In this document: in pieces, positions 10,379 through 41,900 of the stretch
How the letters are laid out: the number at the start of each line of letters is the position of its first letter
Numbering within the stretch: position 1 is the first letter of the stretch
Source of the DNA: Planoprotostelium fungivorum
Lineage: Eukaryota; Evosea; Variosea; Cavosteliida; Cavosteliaceae
Length of the DNA: 64,000 bases
Assembly (NCBI GenBank): GCA_003024175.1
Contig: MDYQ01000001.1
Location: 310,001 to 374,000 of the forward strand
Direction of reading: 5' to 3'
Position numbers and translations under genes: made by a program
The notes under the pieces: model-generated
Database searches by the model: none
The model's input: the letters and a program-made list of their open reading frames with translations, nothing else
Told to the model about the DNA's origin: nothing

Positions 10379-13300
10379 TCAATCTCCATCTACATCGGTT
10401 GATTGTTCACCCCTCTCGATATTCCTCAGGACGAATTCTTTCGAATCGGGCGCGGGCAGTCTGCCCCTCTTTGCGGTGAATATGCGCAATACCTTCAACC
10501 TCTTCGTCGGGTGGACCTTGCACTCTTCCTTTTCCATGAGATCAGATACCATCTCGATCTCATTGGGTAGCTGTCACGTCTCAACCGTTTTCCTTCTGCT
10601 TCTCATCACCTTGGTTGACAGCGATTTCGCTTGGTACATTTTCATCTCTGCCTCTGCCAGGATAGACTTGATGCCCTCGAATCCCTCCGTCACCCTTTTC
10701 GAATGTCAACGAGATTTCGATCGATTCCACGCGAACGATCACCCTTCTACATCGCTCCAATCGATCCTTCTCATTTCCAAATTGAGCCGATCGAGTGCAG
10801 CTCGAACTGGAGACAGAGAAGCCACGGGCTGGCTCGTCAAGTTACCGTAAACGGTCGTCATACCAACCGCGATTAACCTGTCAGTGGGGTGAGACACACG
10901 AGATTTCCGTGAGATCTCACTGTCTGGTCAGATCGGAAGGGTTGATGGTCTCCATGTAATGTAAGATCTTCTCTGCTTCTCTGACCGAGTGGAAGAGTGG
11001 TTTCTGTTGGGAGGGTGGTCTGCCCTCACATTCGTCCCAGCACGTCTGCCAGAGATTTCCTGGAATTTTCATGCGTACGCTGAGGTCTCCACGGGGGTGT
11101 AGGGGATCGAAGGGCTGTTCTTCGATGAAATCTCGTGGACTATGCCATCGAATGAAATCAACCAATTGGGCTCCAGCATTGGCCGCCTTGAAGGATTGCA
11201 TGTCTGTATTCTCGTCACAATTCGATCGTCTACAACGTTGTAGACGCTCACCGGATACGAGGGAGCTGGACTGCATGACGGCCCTCTTTCTCTGACCCTC
11301 CTCTGAATCTCCCAATTTGAAGAAAATCTCTTCTTGCTCCATCAGCATGTCCTCCGTCATAAGTCCCTGCGTCTACAACGCGTCAGTGATCGTTTCATTC
11401 GTATGAGACTCCACCTGGGTGTTGGGGCACATCATGGGTCGACCGTTGGCACAGTAGGTGTCTGGAATCGTTGTAGATGTATCCTTGGCCTGCTTCACGC
11501 TGGACCTTGTCATCTTCTTTTTTTCCGGACTACCTGTGACGGGCTGTACGTCTCAGTCGCGTTGTAGATGAACCGACATCACCTCCTCGTCTTCACTGCT
11601 GGCGCCAGCTTCTTCCTTGTTCTCCGCATTTTGAATGCAATAATTCAACTGTGTCACCGTGTCAACGATGGAAGAGAAAAGTCGATGAAATCTCACGAGC
11701 TGGAGTTTTTGATGGATGAGGCAAGATCTGAGATCGATCCTGTCATATTTGACGTTGGGCAGAGGGATCTTACTCTCCCAACAGACTCTCGACTCTCTCA
11801 CAAATTCACCCCACAGAAGGCCCAGAGCTGCACAGTCGTCAGTGAGGTCACGTGATGCGCGCGCGTCGCATTCGCACATTTTAGATTGACGGGGGTATTG
11901 AGCAAGTGGACCAAGAAGAAGGCCAACAGGGACCTCGGGGGTGCTCCCTTGGCTGAAGGCAGGGTCTGAAAATTCCGTGAACATTCTCCGTCTCAATCTT
12001 TCGTGCCTCACCACGTCATCGCCTTCGATTTGGGTGAAATTTCGGTCTAATCTACGCCCCGTGGGAGAGATACCGAATACGTCTCTGATGCTGGTATCCA
12101 CCTCGGTGATGCTGGGAACCTTCTCTGATTCCAGGAATTCGGGGCCCAGAGATCTACGTTACGTGTCATTACGCTTGTAGATGCTCACTTCATCACCTGG
12201 TGACCACATTGACGGCGTTCATCATACCCGTGTTGACACTGTGTACGTAGTTCTGTGGCTCTGTAGGTGTCGACATTTCATTCTCGTCGACAGTGACAGA
12301 AGCAGGTGGCGATGCGAACAACTTCCCGATAGAATTGTAAGACTCGCTCCTCTTAGCCACTCGACAGAGGAAGTGCATCCGTTGAGATAAGAAGGCAGAA
12401 GGCCTGATTCACCTTCAGAAGATATCCAAAAGTCCTATACATCTCTCACTTTTCGTCAAAGACACAACGCAAGTCCCAACGTGGAGCCTTTAAAACTTGC
12501 TCGTCAGAGACATTGACACCATCTCGTATGACCGATAGACACTCGTGCAACGTCTCGAAATGCCAGCTGGCCCCGAAGTCGAGAGCTGCAATGAGGTTGG
12601 TGAATTGAATCTCACGTTACGCACTCTCTATTGGATCTTCGGGGGGGTACCACAGCAATCGGTTCGTCTCCAATCTGGTCGTTAATTTTGGTGTCTCTAC
12701 GATTCCCCTGCTACCAGCTGTCGTGACGTCACGATGATGTAGAACGGATGTCTTACTGGGCACGGCCGCTCCATCTCTGCCGGTGGACACGTTGGGTGAA
12801 GCCTTGAGTTCTGAAGAGGATGAATTTCGCATGTGGGTCGATGGTGATGCATACCCATCTTGGGATCTAATGATTGGAGATCATCTCGGGTGACCATGAA
12901 TGTGAATTTAGAAGAGAAGGTGACCGGATGGTGATATCCAAACCTCTCCTTGATGGGCGCACAATCAGTGTAAATGGATGAGATCTGATCCTGATGAAAG
13001 TAGTCAGAAGGTGGCGTTATGTGTGGACGACTTACGATGCGCTGAAGGAAGAGAGAAAGTAGTCCCTCCACATCAGATGCCGAGTCTGGAACGGATGAAA
13101 GACTGTCTGCATCGAAGCGAGCGGAGACTTCCGTGTATGGATCTAAATGAGGCGATGGAGTGATAATAGGGTTGTTGCACCATCCTAAATACTTTCCTTG
13201 CCATCTGGTAACCCGTCAGAATTCCGACGAAAAAAAGATGGAGACAGAGGGTATCGATCCCCCTACCCCTCGCATGCAAAGCGAGTGCTCTACCATATGA

Positions 13301-14215
13301 GCTATGCCCCCGAATGAATAGGCCAAAAAAAGTAAGCAAACAGACCACGCCGTCTTTGATTTACACGGTTCAACAACGCGTTTGGAGCACAACCACTCGA
13401 AAAGAATGCTTCTTACCTCTCTCCAACAGCAACGAAGCATGGTACGGTGAATCGGACGTCCTCTCTCATCTTTTCTCTCCTTCTAGCTGCCGGTAGTATG
13501 TTGTTGTAGGCCACAGCCATGACAGATAGGAGTGTGTTGGCCATGCTGGAAGAGATGCTCTCACTAGGATCGCTCGCCGTGACGATGATGTACTCTTTCA
13601 CTCCGAACCTGTAGATCGAATGAAAAAGATGGAGAGTGATGTCCACGAATCACCATCTCTGGAGATGATGCGTATTCGTTTCGAATTCGTTCTCTAAAGA
13701 TCTCATCGCGGTCACGACATCTTCTGTCGTTCTGTCTTTGACTTGGTGAAATGAAAAGTCGTATGAGGTGTCAAGATAGTTGATCTTTTTTGTTCTGTAG
13801 AGATGAGAAGGGCTGTATGTGACGCATCTTCGTTCACCTGCTGTTGTAATTCTTCCTCTCGCTGACATTATCTTCGACGATGCCCTCGTCTGTCTCTCCT
13901 ATCCACCATTGATTCAACAACTGCTCAACAGAGCTGACGAGTCTGAGCAATAATGAGTCTCCCATTTCGTTTTACAGCTGGCATAGAAGGTGATCAACTG
14001 ACTCACTTCTCCCAGGGAGTGACTGACGTATAATCTACGATTTCGAAAGGTTCTTCCTTGTCTGTGATGTCTTCTACATCCTCATCACTGATAGCCGGCT
14101 CAGCTGCTCTGACAGGAACGGCTTGCGGTTCTTCATCCCCTCTAGATCCTTCTGAGGCAGATTCGAACCCTTCATCATCGCTCCATTTGAAGGAGATGGC
14201 CCGCTTGGCGTTCAT
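10379..14215 (-). CDS. RAB3GAP1: Rab3 GTPase-activating protein catalytic subunit homologue
   Basis: The RAB3GAP1/RAB3GAP2 complex acts on Rab3 and as a Rab18 exchange factor in vesicle, autophagy and ER traffic. The translation follows the animal protein along its length: acidic N-terminus with FEIVDYTSVTPWEK, then MANTLLSVMAVAYNN, RWQGKYLGWCNNP across an intron, LWGEFVRESRVCWESKIPLP with SCLIHQKLQLV, and MTEDMLMEQEEIFFKLG with DMQSFKAANAGAQLVDFIRWHSPRDFIEE. The C-terminal KEFVLRNIERGE matches the family's KEFILR-type end. The ATG at 14213-14215 is chosen; an upstream in-frame ATG at 14329 would add a hydrophobic leader untypical of the family. The last exons below 10917 were found by splicing CAG-ended introns; stop at 10379-10381. 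Most introns are about 40-50 nt, but one of 212 nt (13205-13416) contains a tRNA-Ala gene. Confidence 0.9.
11227..11246. repeat. Intronic palindrome (CTACAACG motif, full form)
   Basis: Perfect 20-bp palindrome CGTCTACAACGTTGTAGACG inside a 45-nt intron of the RAB3GAP1 homologue. The splice junction around it is fixed by the conserved SDMQSFKAAN protein segment. Confidence 0.85.
13239..13311 (-). tRNA. tRNA-Ala(TGC) nested in an intron
   Basis: A 73-nt cloverleaf: acceptor GGGGGCA/TGTCTCC, anticodon arm CTCGC-TTTGCAT-GCGAG, T arm GGGGG-ATCGATA-CCCTC with one G-U. A T-run on the minus strand follows. It lies in the same orientation within the 13205-13416 intron of the RAB3GAP1 homologue. A nearly identical copy is at 38549-38621. 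Confidence 0.93.
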
Positions 14216-16430
<2,215 letters not shown>

Positions 16431-16431
<1 letters not shown>

Positions 16432-16541: not shown

Positions 16542-19025
16542 TTATCGAGGATGTAGTCCTAGAGCCCTCTTCATCTGCGACACAGCTAAATCCCACGTGC
16601 CAGGTTTCTGAGAGACCGTGCCAATGTTCCTCACGATGAAGGGAACAGATGACTCGATGAGGTTGATCTCTGGATTCAGTGTTCTACCCAGACCTTCTAA
16701 CACGATGGTACCCAGCATCAAGGTCGAGAAATTTCCTTCCAGCTGCGAAACGTTGAGAGAGAAATGAAATGAAATAAATCACCTTGACTCCGTATTTTCG
16801 AACGGTTTGCATGAGGCTGGCGAGAAATTGCCCGACCTCGATTTCTGATAACTTCTTAGACCTGATCTTGACGAAATGAGCTCCCATCTCGTGAAGGTAA
16901 TCCGCTATGTTTTCCATCAGTCATCGTGTGGCATGGACACACGGCTTACCTTCACTCTGTGGTGTCTTCCATTTGGGTGGTTCTCTGGCGTATTTGTACA
17001 TCAGGGCGGCACCTCCCTCACCATCTCCCTCTACAACGGCTCGGAAGAGTGAGACGAATTTGAATGAATCTTCTTGTGTCATCTGAGTGATCAAACCCGC
17101 GTCCAAGACGACCAATTGGATCTATAACGAGCCAGAATCAGACGTGATGTCGTAAATGACATCTCACCTTGTTGATATCGTTGTGAGGGGCGGAGGGGTC
17201 TGCGCCTCGGACGAGAACGTTACCTGAGATTGTCACCATCTACAACCAGCCAATCCTCAAACTACAACGAGCCACTCACCGGGATGAAGGTCTGCGTGTA
17301 TGAAATGATCGACCAACATCATTTTAAGATAGCCGTTCAATCCAATATCCGCAATCTTCTTCTTCGCTTCTGTGTCCGGGGAGTCAAAGAACTGAGATAC
17401 AGTCCTTCCCTCCTCATAGCTCTCTACCAACACCGAAGGATAGCTCAGCTTGATGTAAGGCTTGGGAAACACGATCTGATGGTGAGTGAGCGTCGCGGAG
17501 GATGAGAAGGTGATGGATTACCCTCGTGTCTTTTCTAAAGTTCTTGCGGAAGCAGACGAGGTTCTGTGCTTCTCTCGCCAGATTGAGTTGATCCAACATG
17601 TTCACTCTGAATTGATCCTTTGCATCGTTCAAGCTGAGAAACTGCACGCCCGGAATGCGATTCATCTTTTTTGCGTTATTTTCCTCCGCAAACAGCGTTG
17701 TAGACTCACGACATCGACGATGGAGCTCATAAGAGATAGATCGACCAAGACAGAGACTCTCGTTCGGGGGTGTCTCACTTTGATCGCCACCTTTGTTCCG
17801 TCGTGAAGTGTGGCTACGTGGACTTGTGCAATAGCACCTGAAATGGTCACGTGACCCGAAATTCCGACGAAAATCACTCACCGGATGCCAATGGATGGGG
17901 ATCGATTGATCGGAAGACCTCCTGAGGTGGTCTACCCAATACACGTGTGATCTCCTCTACAACGCGTCAGATTCACGTCGTGATATCACGTGTGATATCT
18001 CTTGAGAATGGACTCACTCAGGGTATCGGCGAAGTCGTGGGTGGGACAATCAGAGTGTAAGGATGACACGTACTGACAGAATTCTTCCGAGAACAGATCC
18101 GGTCGAGTCGATATCCACTGGCCACCCTTGATCCAGCAGGGACCTGAGATTTCCATCAGATCTATGTGAAATTTCGCGGAGATCTCACCTGCCGCCTCCA
18201 GAGTCCACAGTAGAGCTGACCACCACCACTTCTCGACTCTCGTATTGTGAAAGAAGTAGAGAAGGGGAGACGTCAACAGAAGGGGTTGGAACAACAGCAA
18301 CAGCTGGACGGACCTCCAAACCTTTCTGAGGAAGAGGAAAGAACTATGGACGTCATGCTCTCTTCCATCACGGTGATCGACTCACATTTCGTCTGATTCT
18401 TGTAGTTTCAAGATCTCCTGTGCTTGTTCTGGCTCATCATCCGCTTCATTTGGGAGAGGAATCTCTCTTCCCAATAGTTTGTCGATGTATTCGGAAACGC
18501 TCTACACGGTGGTCAGGAGTTTTTCAAATTTGGATGATTCACCGGATTATTGTATAGATAAGCGGCACCACCGAGAGCCGCGATCAGGGCGAACAATGCT
18601 TCGTAGCCTCCTCTCTTCTTCCTTCCAACTTTTCTTACTGATGCGACAATGGGCTGACGAACAGCTCCCAAGTCTTTATCGAAAAAGACTGGGATTCGAT
18701 CAGATATGATGTGTCATGGATGGTAAAATAGAACCTGAGTGAGGTGGATCCGATGTTGTGTTGGCAGAAGTCTTGATTTCTGTGGCTTTCGTTGTGCGAT
18801 CTATATCGGTCGAAAAATGACGACCGACGTTTTGTTTTTGTGACAACGCCATGGGAGTAGATAGAAAGCATGTCTTTAGAGTATTGGATAGGGTAGATAT
18901 CTTCGTTTGTGTCGATCGAAAGTGGCAAGGTGCCAGACTGGGCCTAGAATACCGTCAGCACCTCATACTATTGAAATGCAATACCGATAAGGACTAAAGA
19001 GCCCTCTGGCTCTTAGTGTGATCAT
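16542..19025 (-). CDS. ADCK2-like ABC1/UbiB atypical kinase, mitochondrial
   Basis: The ABC1/ADCK family (COQ8 relatives) acts in mitochondrial lipid and coenzyme Q metabolism. The N-terminus (MITLRARGLFSPYR, then an Arg/Ser/Thr-rich stretch with HFSTDIDRTT) looks like a mitochondrial presequence, joined over a 41-nt intron. Family signatures: the KxGQ-type segment WIKGGQWISTRPDLF, FCQYVSSLHSDCP, the Ala-rich loop equivalent SGAIAQVHVATLHDG, the lysine segment VAIKVRHP, LAREAQN, FIHADLHPGN and, in place of DFG, VVLDAGLITQM. The LDAG form and the GQW.STR segment point to the ADCK2 subfamily. Stop TAA at 16542-16544. One acceptor (about 17957) is provided by the CGTTGTAG motif and other introns contain the same word. 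It is divergent from the helicase gene, with 94 bp between the start codons. Confidence 0.85.
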
Positions 19026-19119: not shown

Positions 19120-21451
19120 ATGATCACGCGGTTGGCAGCAATAAGGTCACCTCTGCCCCTTTCATCTATCGGGAGTTGGAGATCATTTGCAACGGCCGCA
19201 GCTCCAAAGCATCCCAATGCATCGTTTAGAAGACCTGGCGTCACCGGCAGTGCTTACGGTCCATCAAAAGGAAAGAGTACCGACGAGGATAAGAGATTTG
19301 GAGAGGGAAAGAAGTATGAAGAGAAGAAGTTTGGTGATCCGAAAAAGTATGAAGAGAGGAAGTTTGGTGATCCAAAGAAGTATGAAGAGAGGAAATTCGG
19401 TGATCCAAAGAAGTATGAAGAGAGGAGATCTGGTGAAGAAAAGAAGTTTGGTGGAGAGAGGAAGATGGAGGTGAGAGACAAGAAGGACGGAAAGAGCTGG
19501 AAAGAAGCGAAGAGGGTTCCAAATACAGTGAAAACGAAGGCGTACGGATACAAACGTGCGTTCGAGAAAGTAGCCGAGCCATCAGTCCTCGTGAGTTTTT
19601 GATGCATCACATCGATCGACCTCACCAAATCACATCGAGCTCATCTCCTTCTCATATTCGAACTACAGTCTGGAAGATTATCTCATGCAACTGCCAGAGG
19701 AGGTTCCATCCTCTTTCCCCAGACTTCGCAGAAGATACGCACACCGGCCAAAGACTTCAGTCTCTTGGGACTCTCCCCCCTTGTCGTTCAAGGGATCTCG
19801 ACTGCCATACCCACCATCACACAACCCACTCTCATTCAGGTATCACATCGAATGGGTGATGCATCATGTGTGGAGACTGAAGGAGACAGACACAAGCCAT
19901 ACCCGAGATACTCAAGAGAGACAAAGACGTCATCATGGCGTCTCAGACAGGAACGGGAAAGACACTGTCCTACCTCCTGCCCATCATCCATCACATCAAG
20001 GAGGACGAAAAGAAGGTAATGGCTCGTTGTAGACCGACCACTCATCCTTTCAGGTTCCATCGAGAGATCAACGACCCGCAGCCCTCGTCTTAGTGCCCAA
20101 CCGTGAGCTGTGCCAACAAGTTGGAGTGCGTCCTCACTCGACCTCCCACACCAAAAACTCATTTTCCACAGGCGGTCGCCAAGCAACTGTCCCACTTTAT
20201 CAAATTTCGCACGACACAGCTGACGGGCGGTCAGAGCAAGCACAAGGAGAATCGGAAGACGGAAGGAAAAATCGATCTCATCATCGCTACACCGGGTAGA
20301 TTATTAGAGGCCGTCGAGAGAGGTGAGTCTCCTTGTGACGACTGAACGATGACGCTGACAGGCCACCTCTTTCTGACGGACGTACGGCACGTCGTGGTGG
20401 ATGAGGCGGACACCATGTTCGACAAAGACTTTGGAACTGAATTAGATAAGATCTTCCTGCCCATCAAGGGAAGGAAAACGGAGGTGAGAGTTGATGAAGC
20501 ACGCCTTTTTGTCATCTTTTTCATATTTTGAGATGGATTCGAATTGAAAATGTACCAGATAGAGACGTACATTCGACCCACTCAATTTGTAGTGTGCAGT
20601 GCCACCCTTCCAGAGAAAGTCAGAAATCTGATACAGAAACAATTCCAGGTGGGAGTCTCGTTGTAGATGGACTGACCGTGACAGCACATCACGGTGGTCA
20701 AGACACCGGATCTCCATCACGGTCTCAAAGGATTGAAACAAGAGTGGGTCACCATCCTGGGCAAGGACAAGTTCGGTTCGTTGTAGATTGATCATCAGAC
20801 GTGTCTCACGGCTGTCAGGTGCCCTGAACACGATCCTACTGGAGACACAGGGTAGACCGACCATCGTCTTCTGCAACACCATAGAGAGTTGTAGAGCGAC
20901 CGAGCATCACCTCAATGAATTAGGATTCGTCTGCTCGAATTTCCACGGCGAGATACCTTATAAGGTCAGTTATACATCCAGTCGTGACCTTTTCATCATT
21001 ACATCACAGGAGAGACAAGAGAATTGGGAGAGATTCAAGCGCGGCGAATCTAGAGTACTCGTGTGCACGGACATTGCATCCAGAGGTGATCGTCATCATC
21101 ATCACGTCCATCATCACGTCCATCATCACGTCCATCATCGCGAGACGAATCACTGACAGAGACAGGTTTGGATACGACCTTTGTCGATGACGTCATCCTC
21201 TTCGATTTTCCATCGAATTCTACGGATTACATCCATCGAGTGGGGAGGACAGCCAGAGCAGGAAGAAATGGAAAGGCCGTATGTTTCGTAGCTGCCAAGG
21301 ACAGACCTCTCGCCAACGAGATCAAGGTGAGCTCATCATCGGTGAGACGTCATCAGCTGATGGAGATGGATAGAAGGTCATCTTGTCGGGAGGTAGTATG
21401 GAAGATCTATTGGCCGCCGATCGTCTCAATCGACTGGGAAAGACAGAATAA
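19120..21451 (+). CDS. DEAD-box RNA helicase, mitochondrial, DDX28/MRH4-like
   Basis: ATP-dependent RNA helicase, probably for mitochondrial ribosome assembly. The start [16 protein letters not shown]...RSFATAAA is a plausible presequence, followed by a Lys/Glu-rich region with an 11-residue repeat. Helicase motifs spread over short exons: [14 protein letters not shown] (I), [11 protein letters not shown] (Ia), [13 protein letters not shown] (Ib), [13 protein letters not shown] (II), CSATLPEKV (III), IVFCNTIES (IV), [19 protein letters not shown] (V) and [13 protein letters not shown] (VI). The TDIASRGLD-T-V segment and the overall order resemble DDX28. I end the gene at TAA 21449-21451, which overlaps AATAAA. 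A Lys/Arg-rich open stretch at about 21515-21590 ([15 protein letters not shown]), preceded by a good acceptor, resembles the basic tail of DDX28 and could be an extra exon. Several introns carry CGTTGTAG, one at the donor (20778). Confidence 0.85.
19327..19425 (+). repeat. 33-bp coding tandem repeat ([11 protein letters not shown] x3)
   Basis: Three direct copies of a 33-bp unit with a few substitutions, flanked by partial units on both sides, in frame in the helicase N-terminal region. The encoded 11-residue repeat is Lys/Glu rich and probably disordered. Copy number may vary between strains. Confidence 0.85.
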
Positions 21452-21719: not shown

Positions 21720-21806
21720 TTGGTGATGCAGGTGTCGAGTGGTGACACAAGATTCCCTACAAAATTTTTGCTTCCATTGACAGCAGATAATGAGAACAAA
21801 ATGTAG

Positions 21807-21879
21807 CGCCCACCGGGGGGCTCGAACCCCCGACCACACGGTTAAGAGCCGTGCGCTCTACCGACTGAGCTAGACGGGC
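21807..21879 (-). tRNA. tRNA-Lys(CTT)
   Basis: Same 73-nt sequence as at 9845-9917, minus strand. Its 3' flank GCTACATTTTGTT is shared with the other two Lys copies, so the pair behaves as a duplicated Lys-Trp unit. Confidence 0.95.
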
Positions 21880-22056
21880 CGTGATGACGATTGCCAACTG
21901 CATAGTGATTGTTAGATCGACCACAACCTACATTGACGGTGTTATGATCTCTAAATCGAAGTATTGAATTTTCGTGAAGAATCAATGTTCACTATGTAAT
22001 CATATTTATTTCCTCTGGTTAATATACATCTGATCACTCGTCAGAACCACACCACA

Positions 22057-23665
22057 TCACTTCCTCACCCTGGGAAGTATATGAACCAGATTGGGTGGAA
22101 CTTGGTTGTAGAAGGCGATCTTATACCACAGAGCGGCGCTAGCATGTCCATTACAGAAGGCCCACCAATATTGAATCCTCAAGTCTTCATAATTCACCTC
22201 GGCATGTTTCAGTGGCACGTTCGATTGAACCTCTCTACCTGCATGTACAGATTCATCTCTTCTTCGTTTGTGATCTGTTTCTTCATGTTCGTCAACTGCT
22301 CGCTGTATCTGATGTCCGCCCCCGGAATTGGAATCCTCTGCAGATCGACCGAATCGGAAATCTTCCACGCCTCTGCTTGTCTACAACGTTGTAGTCAGAG
22401 GAGATACGCTACAGTCAATTTCTCACCGATAAGGCGAAGTGAAGAGACAAAGGGCGGCGTACACTTTAGACATCTGATCCTCCGCCCCACTGTACGTCTC
22501 CACAGTTCCCTTGAACAATTCCGCCGCTTCCAAAAATCTGACGCGTTCGATCACACGGCCTCACTTACGTACGTACCTTCCCTGGGACATCGCCTCCGCT
22601 GCCCTCACGCATCTGTACCCCCTCATCCATTCTGCGTTCAAAATGGCGGCGATCGCAGAGCAAGTCAAGATCAAGCCGGAAGACGCGAGGCCCCACGGTC
22701 CTATGACGTCATCATTCATCATCACTTCTCCACTCACCCATGAATCGGTGGGACAGTCCCATGATGGCTCCAGAGAGGATGGCTCCCAGGTGGGCGTATT
22801 GATTCGGCTGTCTGTCATCCATCTCCGTGTACAAGAGAGAGTAGACGTAGTAGCTAGCCATCAGAGTGGCTACGCCGACCGGCCCAGAGATTCCACGTAA
22901 GAAAGTTCCCGCGCTATCTTTCGGTGTCACTCGTTCCCGCCAAACCGTGGCGAAGGCGTACAACCCCCAGCTGACGCTGGAGATGGTGAGTTTTCATCGA
23001 GTATTCTCTCCTCACGTTCCCAACCCCTTCGTGTCGTTTCTCGGTGTGGAGTCGTTCCTCTGTGTGGGTGTACACAGCTAGTTGTCGTTTGAGTGAAACG
23101 CCACTTCAAGTGCTGCATCATCACCTCCATCACGGTACCACACAGACCTACAACGATGGACACGAAGAGTAAAATGCGAGCCTTGAATCTTCCCTGAATG
23201 GCGTGGGCTATAACGATCCAAGACAAGACACTTCCGGCGAGGTGATAATAGCTATCGTGAAATAGAGGACAGGTGAACAATTTCATTATGTCCTGATGAT
23301 GTCAGATCATCAGGGGATGAGAATGAGGGAGTCACCAATGGAGATTCATTCATCCACAGATACAGTCTGAGGTGTTGATCGTATCCGGTGCTGTATAGAT
23401 AATGTAAGATACTGGTGGCGAGGGCGGTGACATAAGTGGTTCTGGCTCCTCTATCAGCCAGTGAATCCTTCAATTGAGGTGGAGTCAAGACGAACTCTAA
23501 TGGAACATTAGGATGTTCTTCGATGTTCACAAAACGGTCACCTGGAAATCCACCGGAAACAACAGTCTCTGGTTCATCGGTAAATCTTTGTGCTTTGAGA
23601 GGACGAGTTGTCGTGTGAGGACGGGAGGTCATTATGATCGGGACCAATCGTGATCGCTGTTTCAT
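22057..23665 (-). CDS. Rhomboid-like multi-pass membrane protein, probably inactive
   Basis: Spliced from several exons; start MKQRSRLVP at 23663-23665, stop 22057-22059. After a polar N-terminal stretch (FPGDRFVNIEEHP) come six hydrophobic segments in rhomboid order: helix 1 near THYV/ALATSILHYL, helix 2 with SYYHLAGSVLSWIVI, helix 3 ILLFVSIVVGLCGTVME, a helix-4 segment GLGTVSWGLYAF across an intron, helix 5 GPVGVATLMASYYVYSLLY, and helix 6 with YAHLGAILSGAIMG. Aligned with the 42.6 kb paralogue (GLSGIIFGLMGF), the catalytic Ser position appears to be Gly, while the helix-6 His is kept. The C-terminal region (FLEAAELFKGTVETY, DLQRIPIP) is helical and similar to that of the 42.6 and 45.0 kb paralogues. 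One intron ends in CTACAACGTTGTAG used as the acceptor. Family call is moderate. Confidence 0.6.
22381..22394. repeat. Palindrome CTACAACGTTGTAG forming a splice acceptor
   Basis: A 14-bp perfect palindrome at the 3' end of a minus-strand intron of the rhomboid-like gene. Splicing after its terminal TAG joins SPYR to QAEAWK in frame, whereas neighbouring AG sites shift the frame. Confidence 0.7.
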
Positions 23666-24000: not shown

Positions 24001-27000
24001 ATGTCGGACGTATATTGGACGAGTGAGTCATTCACATTTTGCTGAGCAGACATCACCTTCACATTCGAACCCCTTTTGCACAAATAGAAGGACTGATGAT
24101 ATCGCGTCTGATATATTTCAATTAGATTTGAGATGGCAGGACAAAAAGCAGGAGATTGAGGAACACATCGGAAAGATCGACCACTACAAAGAAGATGCAG
24201 TTGTCAACCGCAAGAAACTCGTCGAAGTCACGAAAGGTATACAGTCTAATCGTCACCATGAGGGAATCCAATCGACTCCACACATCAACAATCGACTCCA
24301 TCTCACACGAGACAACAGAATTCAGGACGATTCCTGACGAACAGAAGATGGAGAAGTTTCCAGCCCTTCTGAAGACATACCAACAAGAAGTCGATCGACT
24401 CACCAAGAGAGCAACATCCACGGAGGAGTTCTTTCATCAGATGACTGATCAAGTGGGATACTTCTTTACATACATCATCTCTCCTGCAAAGTTGTTTCGA
24501 AAAGAACTGAGACAACAGCAGTACCTATTGAAGCCTGAGTTTGATGCAAACCAGATCATCGATAAGTTAAAGGTGTTCATCATCCAATTATATGTAGACC
24601 TATCGATCTCACATTTCTGCAGAGTCAAATTGTAGAGAAAGAAGAACAGAGTCGACAATTGAGAGGGGAAAACGAACAGTACGCTTCAAATATCCAATCG
24701 ATAGTACGTCAGGCGGTGAGATGTCTATAAATACCGCTTACTCACGTCGACAGAACGAACAGATGGAAATTGTGAAGGGAGATTTGGCCCAGAGGGAAGC
24801 AGATCTACAACAGTGTAGACAGGAGATGAAAGTTATGAACGAAACACACGCTTCTTCTCTTGAAGCTGAGGTGAGATGAGTTTTCTCACGATTTCTCACG
24901 AACAGTAGCGAGAGGAAGCGAATCGTTTGAAACAAACTGTGGCTGAGAGAGAGCGCGATCTACAACAGTGTAGAGAGGAATTAAATGCTTCAAGATCAGA
25001 GACAGATAACATTCAAGCCGAGGTGATCATTTCACAGAAGATGATGAGATGACGTCATCAGATGGACAAATTGTCCCAACAGCATCTGGAAGCGGAGAGG
25101 AAAGTCAACGAATATTATCAGAAGTGTTTGACCATGGAGGAGCAATTGTCATCTCGATCTGCACAGACCGATGAAATTTCAGTGAGATTTCATCCTACGT
25201 CAAAGTTGACGAGAAAAGGAGAAGGAAGATTCTGCCGTACAAGAGCTGCGCGATGAAATACAAATCCTGAAAGGTGTGATGATCTGCCTCGTTGTAGATC
25301 AAACGCCCACTCAATCGTCGACAGCCAAGGTAGCAGAGGGAGATCGAGCCATCGAAGAAAATTCACGGAACGTTCAACTATTGGATGATCTCCGTTCACA
25401 ATTGACTACCCTCCAAACTCAAGTGATTGTCGACATTGTCTACACCATACTGAACATTCGATCAGCCAAGTGAAACGGAGAGACACAACACAGAATGGTT
25501 GACCGAAAAGGAGGATCTGGAGGCACAATTGATCGAGACGAGAGGAAAATTGGAAGAATACAGGGAGAGGATGAAGCGAAGAGACAGAGAGATGAAAGAC
25601 ACGGTCAGTCTGATTCTAGTGATATCATTGACAAAGACAGATGACATCGGTGAAAGAGGAGAAGAACAAGCTGCTGTCGGACTTTGAGGTCTTACGAACT
25701 GAATTAGAGAGATTGAACAAGGAGATGAGTGAGGCTGAGATTTCTACGGAATCTCTGAAGCAGAATCTACAACGAACGACGGCGGAGAAGTCGCAGATTT
25801 CGGAAGAATGCGAAAGATTGAGGAGAGAGGTTCGTTGTAGATGGATTTGTATCTGTCGCTCATTCATGGTAGATTGCGGAGAGGAATGAAGGGGAGGATC
25901 ACAGTGCCGCATTGGCAGGTACAGTTGTCTGTACGATTCCCACTGAAATTTCACAGAAGACAGAGAGAAATTTCTCGTGGAATTAGAAGAGAAGAATCGA
26001 CAATTGGATGAGCTGAGAGATCAACTGTCTCGCACGAAAGTGAGATCCAAATCATCCGTTCTATCTTATTCTGATTCATTGTACAGAGAGAGATTGAAGA
26101 ACGAGAGAAGAGATATTCACAAGAAGAAAAGAGGAGTGCCGAAGAGAGGAAGACGATGAACCACGAGATGAATCAGTTGAACGAGGAGTTGGAAGCCAAG
26201 GAGAAGACGTTGCATAAGGCATCCACGGAAGTGCAGGAGATGAATCGAGAGATGACTAAATTGCTGAAAGAGAAGAACGATAGCATGCAGAGGTGAGAAC
26301 AATTCACCATGGCTGTGATGATCTGATGATCTGATGATCTGATGATGATGACAAATATTCAGGATCAATCAAACGGAAGAAGAGAACCGTATACTCCGAA
26401 ACAAACTGGAAAAATCACAGAAAGATCGAGAGGCATTGAACCAACAAGTCCTCAGGGAAGGCTCCTCCCTGACATCCGAGATCGAAGAATACAAAGCCAA
26501 GGCCGTTCGGTACGATATCTGACGTGACGTCTCACCGACCTCGTTGTAGAATCGAAAACGAGAAGGAACAGCTGGCACAATTATTGGAGACGAGAATGCA
26601 GAAGACGAAAGATGCTGTGACGCAGCGAGACAAGCTCATCGGAGAAAATATGAAATTATCCGAAGAGACGGGTGAACTGAGGGATCAGAACGTACAGTTG
26701 AGAGGTGAAGATCTACAACGCTGTAGACGCTCAATATTTACAGCCACAAATGCAAAGATGGAGAGGGAGGTGGCTGCTGTCAACGAAAAGTTGAATTCTC
26801 TCCTTCGATACGAGAAGACTTGCGCGGAATTATCGGTGAAATCTCGTCGAAATTTCTCGCAACTGAAGGAGAGAAGGTCAAGGTGAAGAGTCTGACCGAG
26901 GAAAATACTCGGATGAAAACGGAGGCCCTGAAGAAGTCACAAATGTCGAGCGGAATTTCCGAGGAACTCACGAGGACCAACGACGATCTACAACGAGCCG

Positions 27001-28134
27001 AACACATGGTCACCGTGCTGACGGCACAGAACACCCAACTGCTGTCGGAGATTGAGCACATGCAGGGGTGAGGCGATGTTTCGTGCGTGAATAACATGAG
27101 AAGGTCAACCGAATCTGTGGCAAAAGAATACACTCAGTGGAACATGGAGAGAGATTCATTGAAGGTGAGATGAACTTTTTCCTGATGACGAGACGATCAC
27201 GATGATGATGATGAGGACAGATCCAATTGGATGAAGCACAACAAGAGGCCAGGAGAGCTCTATCTAAGTGAGTTGTCATCCATCTGAATCCACGAGACTG
27301 ATCGCAAGCAGAGCGGACGAGTACAAGAACAAAGTCAAAAATTCCGAAGCCGAGAGGAACAGTGCATCTGCCGCGTTAGACAAGAGCGCAGCTGCGTCAC
27401 GTGATGCCTCCATCCGCCACCAAGAGATCGTCTCCAACTTCGAGGCTCGTTGTAGAGAGATGGAAACTGCCTCCATGCAGATGCAAGCACAGATCCAGAA
27501 TCTCATTTCGAAAGAGAACAGGTGAGAGTGATCATATCTGCACGATTCATCTCCTTTTAGATTGAAAGAAAAACTGAAGAGTGTGAGTGAAGAACTGTTG
27601 TCTGAGAAGGAGAAGAGCAAGGAGAGAGGTCCCCCCGAACCCTCTAAAGTCGATCAACTACAACGAGAACTACACAACGCCATCGTGAGAAGAGACGAAT
27701 TAGAGGCCAAACTGCAAGAGGTGAGACGATGAGACGATGAGTCGTCTCGATGACGTTGTCAGAGTCGAGAGCTCGTCAGACTATACGAAAACGATAGAAT
27801 GGCCAAGTCCACAGAGACCACTAGGAGGATGTCGACATCGACACCGTCGACGAGTCTCAGCGATTTCCCTCTATCTCTCCTCGTCACGGCGGGAAGAAGA
27901 TTCTTTGAATTCTTCCGGCCTCCATCAGATGGACCCACGGTGACGTGTACTGCTAGATGAAGAGACTCAATGTAGGCGTAGGTCGATCCAGTCTTTTCTC
28001 AGAACGCAGATGGCATCAGCTTCAGCTTACCCACGGCCGACAGTTACAACGACACGGCCATAGCGAGTCTTTCTATCAACAACCTCTTCCGAACGAGAGC
28101 TCCCATGTCACCCCCGATTGAAAATGAAGTCTAA
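24001..28134 (+). CDS. CASP-like Golgi coiled-coil protein
   Basis: Very long coiled-coil protein encoded by many short exons. Near the N-terminus the segments NRKKLVEVTK, then FRTIPDEQKMEKFPALLKTYQQEVDRLTKRA (given here in two parts as it spans an intron) match the N-terminal domain of CASP, the Golgi product of CUX1-type genes and its plant homologue (NRRKLAE.T..FK..., LLK.YQEEVD.LTKRAK). The rest is heptad-rich Glu/Lys/Leu/Gln. A clear C-terminal membrane anchor, present in canonical CASP, is not obvious; the end has a short hydrophobic stretch (FPLSLLV) and a last exon from about 28005 with SLPTADSYNDTAIASLSINNL and stop TAA 28132-28134. If that last exon is not used, the gene would stop at 27960. 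AATAAA at 28201 supports the longer form. Introns carry the CGTTGTAG word repeatedly (25291, 25833, 26541, 26712). Confidence 0.75.
26712..26727. repeat. Intronic near-palindrome TCTACAACGCTGTAGA
   Basis: Lies inside a short intron of the CASP-like gene (GTGAAG...TTACAG) whose removal joins QLR to ATNAKMER in frame. Confidence 0.75.
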
Positions 28135-28812: not shown

Positions 28813-28899
28813 TTGGTGTTGCAGATGTCGATCAATCCAACACTATTCCGTACGAACGCCCTTACTACGAGAGTAGCAGATTGTGAGAACAAAATGTAG

Positions 28900-28972
28900 C
28901 GCCCACCGGGGGGCTCGAACCCCCGACCACACGGTTAAGAGCCGTGCGCTCTACCGACTGAGCTAGACGGGC
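28900..28972 (-). tRNA. tRNA-Lys(CTT)
   Basis: Identical 73-nt tRNA, minus strand, with the same GCTACATTTTGTT 3' flank and the same 87-bp distance to tRNA-Trp as in the pair at 21.7 kb. Confidence 0.95.
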
Positions 28973-29703
28973 CGTGATGGCAGAAGCATGCTCTGACAAC
29001 ATGGATCGTGCATACAAGGAAATGAAAAAGCCCAGAATGATCATCTAGCGGATCAGAACTGACGCTGTTCATCAGACGATGAATGCTTACGATGGGTGTG
29101 ACGTAACTGAACCGACTTAAGGTGGCACTATCTGAGAGTTGGCGTGCACGGTGATCCCCAACAAATTCAAATGATAGTCATCAACTGTAGTGGTAACGAT
29201 ATCGAGGTGGGCACCGATATCTCTCGTGTCGTGGTCACATCCCTGTGAAATGGTAGCACAAGACATCCACCACGGAATCGGCTCTCTAGTTCATCGTATT
29301 ATGTTGGTGTCAGATAAGCTCCAGCAGCACCCGATTGAAGAATACGACACAAATCGTACGGGACATTTTCATTGTAGACTGCCGGATTCTCATCTCAAAT
29401 TTTCCGTCCCATTCATCGAAGCGGGATTCTTTCTTCCTTGAAATCCACAATAACTTCTGCATCCTCATCACTTTCTATCCGCACGCCAACCACACAGGCG
29501 CCAGCACACACCTTCAAACACCACACACCCTCGTTCGCTGCTGAAAGAGTAGACGAACACCAACAGAAACACTTTGCCTTTCATGCGATTGGCAACACAA
29601 AGAAGACCCCTCACTTGGTCTTTCGGTCACCCAAGCGCTGCTCACTTCGAGTAGCATCCCCGGAGCACATTCGACTCCGGCTATACACCAATACTCTTTA
29701 CAA
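28973..29703. other. Intergenic, upstream of ornithine decarboxylase
   Basis: Open frames in this stretch (for example 29190-29441 and 29438-29707) show no recognisable domain and have no supporting splice structure. The part next to 29704 is likely ODC promoter and 5' UTR. Confidence 0.4.
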
Positions 29704-31031: not shown

Positions 31032-31060
31032 AGCTATTCTCGTGCATACACAGAAAAGGA

Positions 31061-31577: not shown

Positions 31578-34500
31578 ATGGCGTCAGCTATGCTGGTCTT
31601 CATCGTGTTCTTTTCGGTCACCTTGGCGCATGGTGTGGTGATCGATGCTCAACAAGGAACCAAAGGACAATTGCAAGCTCTTCAAAAACTTTATTATTAC
31701 ACGGATGGTGAACGTTTGAATGCACTCATACAGTACGATTACATTACGCTCATTCTACGAAGGTCAAATGTGGACAAATAATTCGTATTGGACTGGAAAT
31801 GATCCATGTAAATACTATGGCATCACCTGCGACACAGACAATCAGACCATCATAAGCATCAATCTTGCTGGTGAGACATTCTGCTTCGATCTCAAAATGA
31901 CTTCTGGTAGACAATAACTTATGTGGTTACCTCCCCGACCTCTCTTCCCTCTCTGGTGGTTCGAATCATACTGCATCTGATTGACCCCTTCAGGTTTGCG
32001 TATGCTCAACCTCGGCCTGAACAACGTCACGGGCGTTTTTCCAGAGTGGATCGTAAACCTCACGGCCCTCACATATGTCGATCTGAGAGACACATACCTG
32101 TGGGGCAAATTGCCCGAAGACCTAGGACGCCTCCTCAATTTGACTCACTTCATCGTCGGAGACACTTTATTAGACGGGCTGTTGTACAGCCGAGTTCCGG
32201 TGAGGCGGAAGATGAAGAAGCGCGATGACACATGCTCAGGACTCGTGGGGCATGTTGGTTCAATTGGAGAAGTTTGACATATCAGGACACAGCTTTGACT
32301 ACATCAACCTCACCGCATTAGGTTTGAGTCACCATCTGTCGCATCGTCGGTTGACGTCTGCTCATAGGTGGCATGCAGCGATTAGAAACGTTCACCATCT
32401 TTGGTAATTCTTTCAGTGGAAATTTTCAAGATGAAGCTGGACCTTATCTCCCCCAGCTGAAGAGTCTCAAGTACATCGATATCAGGTGAGCTTTTCGGCT
32501 CGTTGTAGATTCACCGTTCAACCTAACAGTGTCAACCAATTCTATGGAGAAATCCCCGATCTATCCGCGAGTACAAGTACGTGATGACGTCATATGACAT
32601 CAACACTCATCCAGACAGGTCTCGAGTCATTTCAAATCGGTTATAACTCGTTCGTTGGAACGTTTCCAGAATGGGTCACACGAATGCAAAACATGTCGTC
32701 CATCATGATAGGCCCCAACTTACTGTCGGGACAACTACCTTCATCGATCAGTAACATGAAGAAGCTGGTTACGTGTGATGTCGTGGGCAGCGGCTTCGAT
32801 GGACCACTTCCGGTGACGATCGATCTACAACGAGACGACTTATTTGAGACAGGACATTTGGGACCAGCTACCAAACATCTCAGAGATGTTTCTATTCTCC
32901 AACAGGTACTGTCTCGCTATCTTTGCCCTCTTTGATTCTTTCTTTTCATCTTCTGACGTCAACAGCTTCAACGGCACCATACCCGAATCTCTATATCGTT
33001 CTCACAGCCTGACTTACTTGCAACTCACCTCTAACCGCTTCACCGGCACCATCTCACCATCCATCGGCAACCTCTCCCTCCTCCAGGTAACCCATCACCC
33101 ACACCTTCTCCACGATTGACAGGCGTCAGTCTTTCTACGTCGGATTCAATCAGATGGAAGGAACCATACCGGAACAATTGTTCTCCTGCACCAACCTCCT
33201 CTCCATTCAACTGGCCGGAAACAACTTCACGGGCAACATCTCGGCGGGATTTCAAAACTTATCTCAGATGAGAATCATCGCCCTCGGTCACAACAAGTGA
33301 GGGCGACAAGTTGCCAAGATCACGTCTGAATCATCGTCGCAGGTTCGTGGGCAGCCTGCCCGATAGTTTTGCGAGTATGCAGAATCTGACGACCATGGAT
33401 TTCTCTTACAACGGCTTCACTGGGTCCATTCCTTCTTCTCTGTCCACGTTGTCCAAACTACAATACCTCTCGTTGAATGACAATCAGGTCATCGTCTCGT
33501 CTCACCGATCCGATTCTGAATTTCTATTAGTTTTCCGGCTCGATGCCTGTCTTGTCACCGAGTTTGATCAACGTTCAGATTCAGAGGAATCGTTTATCAG
33601 GGACACTCTTTTGGATGCTTCAGCTCTCCTCACTACAACTCATCGACATATCGGACAACAAATTCATCGGTCCAGCTTCACCCATATCGGGAAAGTGAGT
33701 GTCTCGTTGTAGATGTCTGTTTACTCATCGTATCAGAAAATATCTGACACACTGTGACTTTTCGAGGAATCGTCTGGCGGGTGAGAACATACTGATGTCA
33801 CCATGGTTACAAGAACTGAGCTGAACTATCGTCAGGGAGAATACCTGTGGCATACACGAACATCATGCCTCTCACTTATCTAGATCTCAGTTCGGTGAGT
33901 GTACATCAAATGAAATGTGCTGATTTACGACGTCAGAACCAGATATCAGGTCCAATCGAGTACAGCCTCGGAAGGTGACGTAGATCTCCACCACTCTTCT
34001 GACACATCGTACAGACTGACGTTGATATCTTATCTGAATCTGAGCAACAACCATCTGTCTGGTAGTGTCGAGCCTAGATTAGCGCAATTGAGCACCATAC
34101 AGTATCTGGATCTGGTAAGTTTTCATCGAATTCTCCTCGACTGATCTGTGAAAAGTCGATGAATCGATTGGATGGATCCGTCCCTTCTGGTGTGTTGGGA
34201 CTCGCCAAACTACTCGAGCTCAGGTGAGAAAAATTTTCCGAGATTCTTCTCTTATTCTTCCGCGAATCTTCTTAACCTTCACAGATTGGACAACAACTTC
34301 CTCACAGGACCCATCGATTCGATATCGAACGCCAAGTGAGAGGAGATGAATCGAATCGTTCAGAAGACTCACTCGCACGTCATCAGATCACTCAACACGT
34401 TGATTCTATCCAACAATGCATTCTCCGGCGGACTGTCGAACATCTTCACCCTTCACAATCTCGTCAACCTCAACATCTCGTTCAATCAGATCAGGTGATG

Positions 34501-37515: not shown

Positions 37516-37587
37516 GGCTCCTTAGCACAATGGCAGTGCATCCGACTCCAGATCGGAAGGTTGGGTGTTCAAGTCACTCAGGGGTCA
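37516..37587 (+). tRNA. tRNA-Trp(CCA), solitary
   Basis: Fourth Trp copy, 72 nt, with the same ACCAACACCAA 5' flank and a T-run 3'. No tRNA-Lys lies upstream, so this is a partial copy of the Lys-Trp unit or an independent gene. Confidence 0.92.
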
Positions 37588-37857
37588 TCCTTTTTTAACG
37601 GACATCCTTGTAATTCAGGAAGGAAATCTCCACTCACGTGATGGATGCACGCGTGGAATGTCGAGGATACTCAACAACAGCACGATGAATGGACCTTGTC
37701 ATCTGAATACTCTGGACACCTCACCCCATAACCGTCCACGTGATGCGGCTCTCGACCATCTTCTATTGGGACCCTCTAAAGGCGCGATGTGCAGAGGAAG
37801 ACCGTTACATTCTGACACTTTTAAGGCTTACATCCTCTCGTCAAGGCAGCATGGCAC

Positions 37858-38471: not shown

Positions 38472-38548
38472 GTAAAGATCGAATCCTCACTTGCGCTTTG
38501 GCCACCTCATCACACATTTGTATATGTGGCTTTCAATCTCTTTCATTC

Positions 38549-38621
38549 GGGGGCATAGCTCATATGGTAGAGCACTCGCTTTGCATGCGAGGGGTAGGGG
38601 GATCGATACCCCCTGTCTCCA
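38549..38621 (+). tRNA. tRNA-Ala(TGC)
   Basis: 73-nt cloverleaf, the same as the intron-nested copy at 13239-13311 except for a T-arm C in place of T (CCCCC against CCCTC). Followed by a T-rich stretch. Confidence 0.94.
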
Positions 38622-38997
38622 TCTTTTCTTTCTCCCTTTGTTTTCTGTTATCCCAGCACACCATCAATGCTTGAAAAGATGAACAAAAGCTCTCCTCTTT
38701 GCGGCGCGAATGCATTCATTTCGTTCATTTAACAGTATTTCGTCTCACCATAATCAACACCCTTGCATTTGTAAACGAGTCGCACTGTGACGATGAGAAA
38801 AGATTAGGATAATCCGTCTTTTGAAGAAAACGCTGATCTGTAGCGTAGTCTCGAGCAAGGCGGGGAGAGTGAAGTGCAGTGGTTTTTAAGCCGGGAGAAC
38901 ATATAGGTGGCCCTAGTGCCAAACCCATGACTCTGTACTCCGGCAAGCTACTGGTAGATTCCAGCAACAAATCCAAAGACAAAGAGAGAAGGGAGCT
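38622..38997. other. Intergenic
   Basis: Downstream of tRNA-Ala and 3' of the DUF4211 gene. The minus-strand open frame at 38725-38982 is out of step with the gene's own stop and looks spurious; nothing else is seen. Confidence 0.4.
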
Positions 38998-41900
38998 TTA
39001 TATCGTCGTCATATTGTCCCCCTTGAAGTCATCCATCGCACCGAGGATGTCTTGGTACTCTAGAGACATCTGAAGAGGATGGATGTCAGTGGATGGTATG
39101 CGAGACGCAATGACTCACAGATCCCAACCATCTCTCGTCTGCCATTACTCGATCGACGATCTCGTTGGCTTCATCTTCCGCCTTATACTTTGATAACTTT
39201 TTTCTAACCAGAGAGTAGATGTGATACTTCCAATGTTGCAGTCGATGATACAACTGCGATCTCGCGTAACAGTATCTACCCAGAGCATACGTCTTCCTCT
39301 TTCCGCTCTCCTCTTCTGGCTCCGGTGGCTGATTCCATCGATTAGACCTTGCATTCGTCTCTCCTCACCATCTCTTTTCCCTTCCAAACCGCCGCGGCAT
39401 CATATTTCTGTCCGCTCAGAATCACGTCGAAGGTGGCGGGATGTCCTGATTTGTTGCATGCCTCACAGTCGACCATCTTTGACGATCTCTCCCATGATGA
39501 ATAGATCGGATAGGCGTCGAGATCTCTGGCAAAGCTTTCGTACCACACGCTTCCCCGAACAAAGTTCTGTCGGTCGATGATGGTGTTCTCGATCTTGTCC
39601 ACGGCAGGTTTGAAATAAGCCCTCTCTGTTTTTCTTCAGAGGATACCTCGCATGCGTTCGTGTCGCGTCTCACCTTTCACCCCGAGATCTTCGCTGAAGT
39701 CTGGGTCTAATAGATTACAGACGATCCACTGTATGTAGACCTTGTAGCTGTCTTCGTCACTGTATACTCCCTTTAGGAGACTGTCCAGCAGCACACCCTT
39801 CTCCTCATCTCCCATGATGGACCGACTGACGTCATCTCGTCTACAACGAGTCAAAATGAGTAGGAAGAAGGATGTACCTGTATATGGCCATGCTGTTCTG
39901 ACTTTCGTCCATGGAGTTTTCCTCGGAGTTTTCGAGGAGATTATCTACATCTTCCTCGGAAGATGCGTGGGATTTCTTGATCCTCTTCAATCTGAGAGCA
40001 TGAGATCCATCTACAACGTTGTAGATGCACCTCTTCGTCGGGTATTCCTCTTCACTGTCTGATCGGATGACCTCATCTTCCTCATCTTCTGAAACGACAA
40101 ATCCGTCTAAGCTGTCTTCGTCATCTTCTTCTGACCGATCAGATCTGTAGGACGTCAGTCTCGTTGTAGATGGAGCCACAGGGTAACTCACTGGTAGTCT
40201 GGCTTCTTCTTCCCTCTGCTTCCGTAAGTTGCTTTGTCTCTCCTCTTCAATTTCGGTGCTCCCTCTTCGTCAGAATTAGCCTGTGTTTTAGATTAGATTG
40301 TGCATCATTCAATGTGGCGATGCAATCTACAACGAGTCATACCTGTCTCTTCGATGGGGCGGCGATGCGTTGAGTATCGTACAATGACATGTCTCTGACA
40401 CTGTTCAGTGAAATTTCGTCGGATTTTCGCTCACTTTTGTCCGTTAGTATTCGAAGTCAAGACGAGTTGAGGCATGAAAGATCCCATTCGAGTCTGTCTC
40501 TGTCTCTTCTGAAGATGTCATCAGAACATCTTCACTCTTTCCTCACCTTTGGTTTCTCTACTATTTTCGATTTTTTGGGAGTTGTGATGATGACATCATC
40601 ATCATCATCATCAGATATGTACGTCACGTCTTTCTTCTTCTTCTCTTCTCTCTTCTGTGTCTTTTTCTCTCGTTGGTCATCGATTCGTTTCTTTTGAGAT
40701 TTCTGTGAAGTTTCTGATGCCCTCGACTTCCCTGACAATTCTAATTCCTCGTCGGCCAGGAGAGATGGCTCGTTGTAGTGAGAACAATTTGCCAAAAATT
40801 CTGCACCTTTTTCTCGGATAAAGTTCGCAGTCTCTTTCTCGGTGAGTTCTGCGTGGGCGACGTTGACTTGACCAAACCGATGAGATCATCATCAGAATCA
40901 TCATCTCCCATCAGTTCTTCCTGTGAATCCTGCGACTTCTTCGATGTAGCCGAGAGCTCCAACTCTTCGTCCGCGAGAAGAGATGGCTGGTTGTAGATGA
41001 ATTATAATTCGAACGTTCTTCCCACTTTCTGTGATAGACTTCTCAGTCTCTTTCTTGGTGAATCTTGTGGTGAAGTCATTTCGATCAATCCAATTTCATC
41101 ATCAGGTGATGATTTCGTTTTTTTCGATCTGCTGTTCGGTTTCATATGAGACAGAGGTGTCTGAAGGAAATCATCATCGTCGATGTCTTGTCTCTCCTTC
41201 TCCTTCTTCTTTGTCTCGAGAGACGAAGGTATGACCTCGAAATCGTCTGTTCGATTTAACACACTACAACGATGTAGATCAATTCACCTTCGAATATGGG
41301 TTTCATATGCGGGATGACGACTTCTTCATCTTCAGAAGAGCAGATGACAGAATCATCAGAGTCTATGGTGTCCTTATCGGCCTTCCCCATGTTCTTCTTC
41401 ACGGGTGAAGACTGTACCCTGACCACGTAAATCGAAATCCCCACGAAATTTCCCACTTTTCATGGTTCCGTTGGGTCTGCGTGTCCGGCAGAGGTTTTAG
41501 AGAGTTTTTCGGTCTCTGTTCCCTGACGATGACGATAGGCTCCACAGATGCTTCTTCTTCGTCACTCTCCCTCTCCATCTGTTCTTTTTCGGGTCGATAG
41601 TTAGAGACGAAGATCCTCTTCCTTCCGTCGTCGTCGCTCAGGTCGATCAACTTCTGTACAGTTTTGGCGGGAATCGTGCGGCTGAGAGGGTCAGGGGGGA
41701 GGGAGGGAGACGTTTCACCTCTTCTTCTCCTCTGCTGTCTCGCGGAACTGATCGAGACGAGAGGTTTTACCGATGAAATTTCCACCGAATTTCTGGCTGG
41801 GTGTACTGATTGACTTTTTAGGAGATTGGCTGCTGCTCTTCTGTGTGGCTGTAGGATGTCAATAAGGTGTAAATACTAGTGTCATGAGAATGAGACGATC

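Follow-up and report, generated by a model that had tools for sequence, protein, structure and literature searches.

The window analyzed here is a stretch of 64,000 nucleotides from contig MDYQ01000001.1 of Planoprotostelium fungivorum (positions 310,001 to 374,000), an amoeba for which a section of Larue and Roy (2023, PMC10639083) holds that the Planoprotostelium fungivorum of NCBI is really Protostelium aurantium. It contains, among others, a DDX28-like helicase gene, an ABC1 kinase-like gene, a coiled-coil gene, LRR-kinase-like genes, an O-GlcNAc transferase-like gene and PROFUN_00142. These genes share a short palindromic word, CTACAACG or CGTTGTAG depending on the strand. A sequence-only reading of the window had put its number at about 48; we counted 34 + 25 = 59 copies, against 1.26 expected from the trinucleotides, so the excess is stronger than was claimed. 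The copies occupy 56 places, of which three are perfect 14-bp palindromes (11230, 22381 and 40011). Each of the 18 positions listed in that reading lies within 8 bases of a real copy, and the palindromes of 14-20 bp that it described are indeed present (the 20-bp forms at 40008-40027 and 11227-11246). The excess extends to the whole genome: 7188 copies of CTACAACG and 7183 of CGTTGTAG were found, against 1037 and 1085 for the reversed control, while the 14-bp palindrome CTACAACGTTGTAG occurs 750 times (control: 0) and the 20-bp palindrome, with up to three mismatches, 1736 times (reversed control: 1).

Gene models were obtained with a gene finder trained on 324 kb (C1:110001-374000, which includes the window, and C2:20001-80000); the word was masked during training, so that the predictions are not steered by it. 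In total 175 genes were predicted, and 756 strong introns were taken out of 1723 in 114 high-confidence genes. These introns are tiny (median 43 nt). Several word-bearing introns can be checked against proteins, in three genes by way of solved or curated ones: alignments run through all three of the helicase gene and both of the O-GlcNAc transferase-like gene, the ABC1 domain spans three in the ABC1 kinase-like gene, and the NCBI protein of PROFUN_00142 agrees with our model at five of six (at the sixth, 39841, where the word itself forms the acceptor, the NCBI acceptor lies 15 nt downstream of ours).

Within the window 39 of the 56 places fall in predicted introns, 15 in predicted exons, one on a boundary and one outside, with a few of the intronic places belonging to doubtful models (169-209, 4026-4066 and 7465-7560 resemble coding sequence when set against paralogous copies). 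The concentration in introns claimed earlier holds per base: 105 strong introns carry 126 copies (3.35/kb), against 42 copies in 134 kb of strong exons (0.31/kb) and 8 in 48 kb outside high-confidence genes (0.17/kb). Dinucleotide-shuffled introns contain a mean of 0.6 copies (at most 3 in 20 shuffles). The density comparison proposed with the sequence-only reading (shuffled introns, exons and gaps) thus leaves the enrichment standing in the 324 kb, though exons too show an excess: coding sequence (189 kb, 114 genes) has 39 copies on one strand and 13 on the other, against 9.7 and 0.57 after synonymous-codon shuffling. Errors of prediction may have placed some intronic copies in exons and a few exonic ones in introns.

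Along the gene the word follows the distance from the predicted start codon. Counted in 250-bp bins its density is 0.11, 0.14 and 0.11 words/kb up to 750 bp, 0.61 between 750 and 1000 bp, and 1.31, 0.76, 1.34, 1.48, 1.41, 1.54, 1.32 and 0.98 from 1 to 3 kb (about 1.25 overall). The first 750 bp hold 10 words, against a mean of 53.3 and a minimum of 34 in 500 circular shifts within genes, and 60 scrambled words show no comparable rise. The intron fraction stays within 0.29-0.38 along the gene, and the donors and acceptors of early introns look like those of late ones; the word is found in 1 of 147 early introns against 100 of 544 late introns (introns starting 600 to 800 bp into the gene are excluded). 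Among the 113 of 114 genes covered by the length classes, 27 of the 29 genes of 3-9 kb carry the word and none of the six shorter than 1 kb does. The 300-bp flanks hold 8 words in 34.2 kb upstream (0.23/kb) and 1 in 33.5 kb downstream (0.03/kb). Avoidance at the 3' end is weaker (0.54 and 0.81/kb in the two final 250-bp bins of genes >2 kb), with 14 words in 16 kb before the start of a tandem neighbour and, where the neighbour is convergent, 10 words in 18 kb. Given that this avoidance is no stronger near a tandem start, the rule seems to depend on the start of the gene itself and not on any promoter. Clumping by gene is modest (dispersion 1.6, with one gene of 21 copies), and sense-antisense pairing of words within transcripts shows no excess (34 against 37.5 expected).

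The word is highly exact. In the strong introns the 15 one-base variants at positions 1-5 add up to 11 copies, against 126 of the exact word, whereas the flanks show graded preferences (T 94% at -1, A 67% at -2, C 54% at -3), as the matrix of a binding site does. The right half is bimodal: compared with TTGTAG, 46 of 229 strand-wise copies (a palindrome being counted twice) have no mismatch, 15 have one, 2 have two, 10 have three and 156 have four to six, so that 61 right halves complete the palindrome (0-1 mismatches) and 156 are mostly unrelated to it. A second mode, [AC]GYCA, is seen in 40 of the 229 copies, whereas other CG in introns are followed by it in 18 of 3395 cases; at acceptors formed by the word it coincides with TGAC, a branch-point-like sequence whose frequency is highest 8-10 nt from the 3' splice site. 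Half-site and palindrome show a fixed zero spacing, as in a dimeric site, and besides the compact palindrome the 324 kb contain only one CTACAACG...CGTTGTAG pair within 60 bp. Overall, the word is exact, far above expectation, dispersed and present in both orientations, which is the behavior of an iterated word.

In 32 strong introns the word ends the intron flush with the acceptor. The sequence-only reading had named several such acceptors; those at 22387-22394, 26549, 61481 and 39841 (with the NCBI difference mentioned above) are recovered, the one at 17957 is internal to the intron in our model. Its claim that orientation is free likewise needs a distinction: without palindromes and flush acceptors the two orientations are balanced (25 against 31), but over all strong-intron copies the sense form CGTTGTAG is commoner (81 against 45). 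Directly after a flush acceptor the exon continues with AT in 20 of 31 cases, against 14 of 78 for other TAG acceptors, which indicates that the DNA motif crosses the splice site. This continuation, together with the neutral orientation outside acceptors and the exonic excess on both strands, sustains the earlier proposal of a DNA-level element.

Comparison of paralogues shows that the word is gained or lost in existing introns. Four tandem LRR-kinase-like copies have one intron in common; two of them carry the word there, each at its own offset, and two lack it. Among 116 intron positions common to paralogues, the word is confined to one copy in 11 rows and present in both copies in 2; of these two rows, one shows opposite orientations and the other is a doubtful model. 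The 13 rows overlap and represent about 9 distinct word introns (about 3 doubtful), restricted to introns with a paralogue. The paralogues concerned are 27-43% identical and keep intron position and phase without the word, so that in this small set words come and go inside old introns. Partial copies of the coiled-coil gene (window 26537-27076) on C1 (95%) and C109 (90%) differ in one half of an intronic palindrome, and each of the three copies of this segment retains at least one intact half. The individual copies in the window are given in Table 1.

Table 1. Copies of the word in the window, with the introns that hold them. Positions refer to the window; the sign gives the strand of the copy.
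Feature	Position	Intron and gene	Remark
20-bp perfect palindrome CATCTACAACGTTGTAGATG	40008..40027	39992-40030, gene on -	
20-bp palindrome around CTACAACGTTGTAG	11227..11246	11204-11251, gene on -	
14-bp palindrome	22381..22394	22381-22426, gene on -	its CGTTGTAG (gene sense) is the acceptor
Half-site near donor	20025..20032 (-)	20016-20053 (38 nt), helicase gene on +	junction backed by DDX28 alignment
Half-site	20659..20666 (-)	20649-20684 (36 nt), helicase gene	DDX28 alignment
Half-site 3 nt into intron	20779..20786 (-)	20776-20818, helicase gene	atypical donor GTTCG; DDX28 alignment
Half-site near donor	17262..17269 (+)	17240-17279, ABC1-like gene on -	ABC1 alignment
Half-site after donor GTGAGT	17696..17703 (-)	17666-17709, ABC1-like gene	opposite gene-relative orientation
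Half-site, internal	17957..17964 (+)	17932-17989	
Half-site	25290..25297 (-)	25274-25324, coiled-coil gene on +	
Half-site across predicted donor boundary	25833..25840 (-)	25837-25904	gene model uncertain here
Half-site as acceptor	26542..26549 (-)	26510-26549	partial copy on C1 reads CGTTGCAG there
Half-site with imperfect partner half	26713..26720 (+)	26705-26743	two partial genomic copies: CTACAACGTTGTAG and GTACAACGTTGTAG
Exonic copy, followed by AGCC	26988..26995 (+)		identical in two partial genomic copies
Half-site	32501..32508 (-)	32486-32529, LRR-kinase-like gene on +	
Half-site, opposite orientation	32825..32832 (+)	32813-32852	
Half-site	33705..33712 (-)	33695-33736	
Half-site as acceptor in our model	39841..39848 (+)	39841-39877, gene on -	NCBI acceptor 15 nt downstream
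Half-site	40162..40169 (-)	40145-40191	
Half-site	40327..40334 (+)	40281-40342	
Two half-sites, second as acceptor	43289..43319 (-)	43276-43319 (44 nt)	
Half-site, preceded by TGGCT (gene sense)	44354..44361 (-)	44343-44392	paralogue intron at same position and phase without word
Half-site	49760..49767 (-)	49743-49787	
Half-site 3 nt before acceptor	4685..4692 (+)	4655-4695	paralogous intron 8876-8920 without word
Half-site, other offset than at 4685	815..822 (+)	paralogous to 4655-4695	boundaries uncertain (792-840 or 810-848)
Copies of the 815/4685 paralogous segment	8640-9220 and 54830-55400		without word
Half-site as acceptor	61481..61488 (+)	61481-61518, O-GlcNAc-transferase-like gene on -	
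Half-site	62519..62526 (-)	62498-62538, O-GlcNAc-transferase-like gene on -	

The tandem LRR/kinase-like copies lie at 1-9781 and 51507-55911 of the window and have relatives on C196 and C335; their low-complexity coding repeats add several exonic CTACAACG. Three near-identical inverted copies (9832-9929, 21795-21892 and 28888-28982) look tRNA-like by eye, and more copies are dispersed over the genome. Other words are enriched as well in the window and the sampled loci (L001-L026): the palindromes TGACGTCA, GAAATTTC and TCACGTGA prefer introns, GGCGGGAA does not. Three palindrome pairs at 146-147 bp first stood out as a possible nucleosome-length spacing, an idea that was dropped as the 324 kb show no significant period. 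Genome-wide, six palindrome pairs have centre distances of 139-147 bp, near the nucleosome core length (C39, C48, C109, C130, C268 and C392); these may be due to chance or include duplicated contigs. Identical match coordinates or scores suggest duplicated or haplotype contigs for C298/C393, C153/C376, C53/C130 and C362/C367.

The word is not spread evenly over the assembly. Five loci (L027, L028, L029, L032 and L033: C1:50-58 kb, C1:80-86 kb and pieces of C10, C150 and C200; 26 kb in total) are free of it, whereas three other sampled loci (12 kb) have 13 words; altogether about 363 kb of the assembly, the window included, was read. The word-free loci are CpG-poor (ratio 0.58-0.74) and nearly without the companion palindromes. 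In line with this, C1:1-110 kb has 3 plus-strand copies among the matches listed, against 94 in the next 264 kb, and the genome therefore looks compartmented. Decay of the word at its CpG was rejected as a cause, with CTACAACA and CTACAATG not raised in the word-free loci (1 and 1 in 26 kb), and within the word-rich region word density does not correlate with CpG (32 bins of 10 kb, rho 0.17, p 0.35). A mixture of two amoeba genomes was disfavored too: no second close copy of the helicase turned up, and palindromes as well as a word-free sample lie on C200. A mosaic genome is therefore preferred, though not proven. The first word-free locus, in a GC-poor part of C1, contains a reverse-transcriptase fragment (L027:5480-5971, PF00078) and another holds part of UTP20; most other reading frames there have no Pfam match.

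What kind of element is this? The sequence-only reading had suggested remnants of introners, i.e. that the word is the end sequence of transposon-like elements that made the introns. Many introns of one genome do share sequence here, as with introners; in addition, the word is concentrated in introns, can serve as acceptor and forms a palindrome that resembles terminal inverted repeats. One word/no-word pair and seven no-word pairs of introns are even alike to near both splice ends, although these could be paralogous introns. Introners are recognized as groups of at least four introns whose similarity extends near both splice boundaries, in a passage of Gozashti et al. (2022, PMC9860276). We found no such group of word introns: among 44 word-word pairs at E<=1e-5 (756 introns) none spans to near both boundaries, and the 20 pairs listed match over 20-26 bp. 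With the word masked, word introns of up to 80 nt (102 of 105) resemble each other no more than length-matched introns without the word do. Introns are not flanked by word pairs, nor are there terminal inverted repeats at intron ends, and where it could be tested the intron pre-dates the word, the paralogous position keeping its intron without it, so that no intron created by insertion was seen. Introns with and without the word are also equally long. With the exonic excess added, the introner origin is already mostly refuted and appears very improbable. A related possibility is that a tiny palindromic mobile or templated insertion of 14-22 bp has scarred existing genes, with a preference for gene bodies. 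The common and dispersed full palindromes would fit, and the preference could reflect an integration bias. However, late introns with a palindrome do not exceed word-free ones in length (medians 44 and 43 nt; 41 nt with a half-site), the majority of copies consist of one half-site followed by a variable right half, and with so few decayed copies almost every insertion would have to be very recent. We therefore consider this unlikely.

If the word instead acted in the pre-mRNA, as a splicing enhancer or RNA-protein site, its intron bias, flush acceptors and overall sense excess would fit. The sense excess nonetheless disappears outside palindromes and flush acceptors (the latter being one-sided by nature), exon copies lie on both strands, donor strength is the same in word introns (medians 5.19 and 5.14, p=0.54), and early introns nearly lack the word in spite of similar splice sites; a role in RNA is thus quite unlikely. 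There is a somewhat small chance that we are dealing with an ordinary transcription-factor site (enhancer or promoter) of a regulon, placed inside genes since intergenic space is small. The other enriched words TGACGTCA, TCACGTGA and GGCGGGAA resemble transcription-factor sites, some such words weakly share the interior bias, and the upstream density exceeds the ~0.03/kb of scrambled words. Still, upstream flanks, downstream flanks and the first 750 bp are all far scarcer in words than gene interiors, the clumping by gene is only modest, and the presence in 27 of 29 genes of 3-9 kb argues against a small regulon.

On balance we favor the view that the word is a selected binding site of a putative DNA-binding protein acting in gene interiors. 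The genome would contain a cis-acting DNA element consisting of the half-site (C)[AG]TCTACAACG, alone or as the full palindrome CATCTACAACGTTGTAGATG. As relics evolving neutrally would be accompanied by many variants, the exactness of the word points to continuing selection, presumably as the site of a sequence-specific and probably dimeric protein. The element would sit in gene interiors, from ~0.75-1 kb past the start codon onwards; we propose that it is mostly found in tiny introns because introns tolerate it, and in exons too wherever the code permits. The bound protein would most likely act on the chromatin or the polymerase within the elongation zone of long genes, possibly by organizing nucleosomes or by blocking internal (cryptic) initiation. 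It might further be argued, though here we are doubtful rather than convinced, that the word and a dedicated reader form a gene-body mark, which appears only after ~0.75-1 kb of polymerase travel, works in either orientation, has introns as main carrier and is present in nearly every long gene of one compartment and not of another.

Several points weigh against this account. The words TGACGTCA, GAAATTTC, GGCGGGAA and GATGATGA are also commoner ~1 kb into genes (less steeply), and the step may therefore partly reflect a feature of the 5' zone in general. In 59 genes >2 kb word density shows no relation to coding score, GC or length, and distances within the 324 kb yield no significant spacing rule (the best period, 148 bp, is under the 95% jitter level). 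Single-base variants do exist, mainly at A6 and G8 (13 CTACATCG, 9 CTACAACC and 7 CTACAACT), of which at least some are partner halves of imperfect palindromes. Among paralogues the word is mostly not shared, and one partial genomic copy has it disrupted at two sites, a flush acceptor and one half of a palindrome. Finally, the gene models are our own predictions on the same 324 kb that were used for training, 264 kb of it from one contig.

Short exact words that are iterated over a genome are known from prokaryotes, namely HIP1 of cyanobacteria and the DNA uptake sequences of Neisseria and Haemophilus. These resemble the amoeba word in their exactness, thousands of copies, use of both orientations, sharp core with softer flanks and palindromic or inverted pairs; the amoeba word differs in being nuclear, eukaryotic and dependent on the distance from the gene start. 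The exact 20-mer palindrome has no match in the viral and prokaryotic sequence collections. The short intronic motifs of plant intron-mediated enhancement favor promoter-proximal introns, which is where the amoeba word is shunned. The periodic An/Tn clusters (PATCs) of C. elegans are located in introns too and consist of A/T runs with a period of about 10 bp, whereas the amoeba word is exact, palindromic and not an A/T run. Like the word, PATCs lie in non-coding DNA, where they can prevent transgene silencing (as stated in a passage of PMC7725773). Literature searches, covering titles and abstract starts with subscription papers outside reach, showed no title about such a word among the records listed. 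Within reach, the 14-mer CTACAACGTTGTAG is named in no paper, the 8-mer string in 855. To our knowledge, a sequence-encoded mark of gene interiors would be a class of cis-element without known counterpart.

Summarizing, the introner explanation fails, and the explanation as a DNA element stands and gains a rule of position. Words common to many introns thus need not imply introners. If the proposed binding site is real, the tiny introns of this amoeba would not be inert, since nearly a fifth of the late introns would carry an exact DNA signal. This would provide both a selectable reason for keeping introns and a sequence-coded marker of gene interiors, and how chromatin or polymerase tells the start of a gene from its body would become a testable question.

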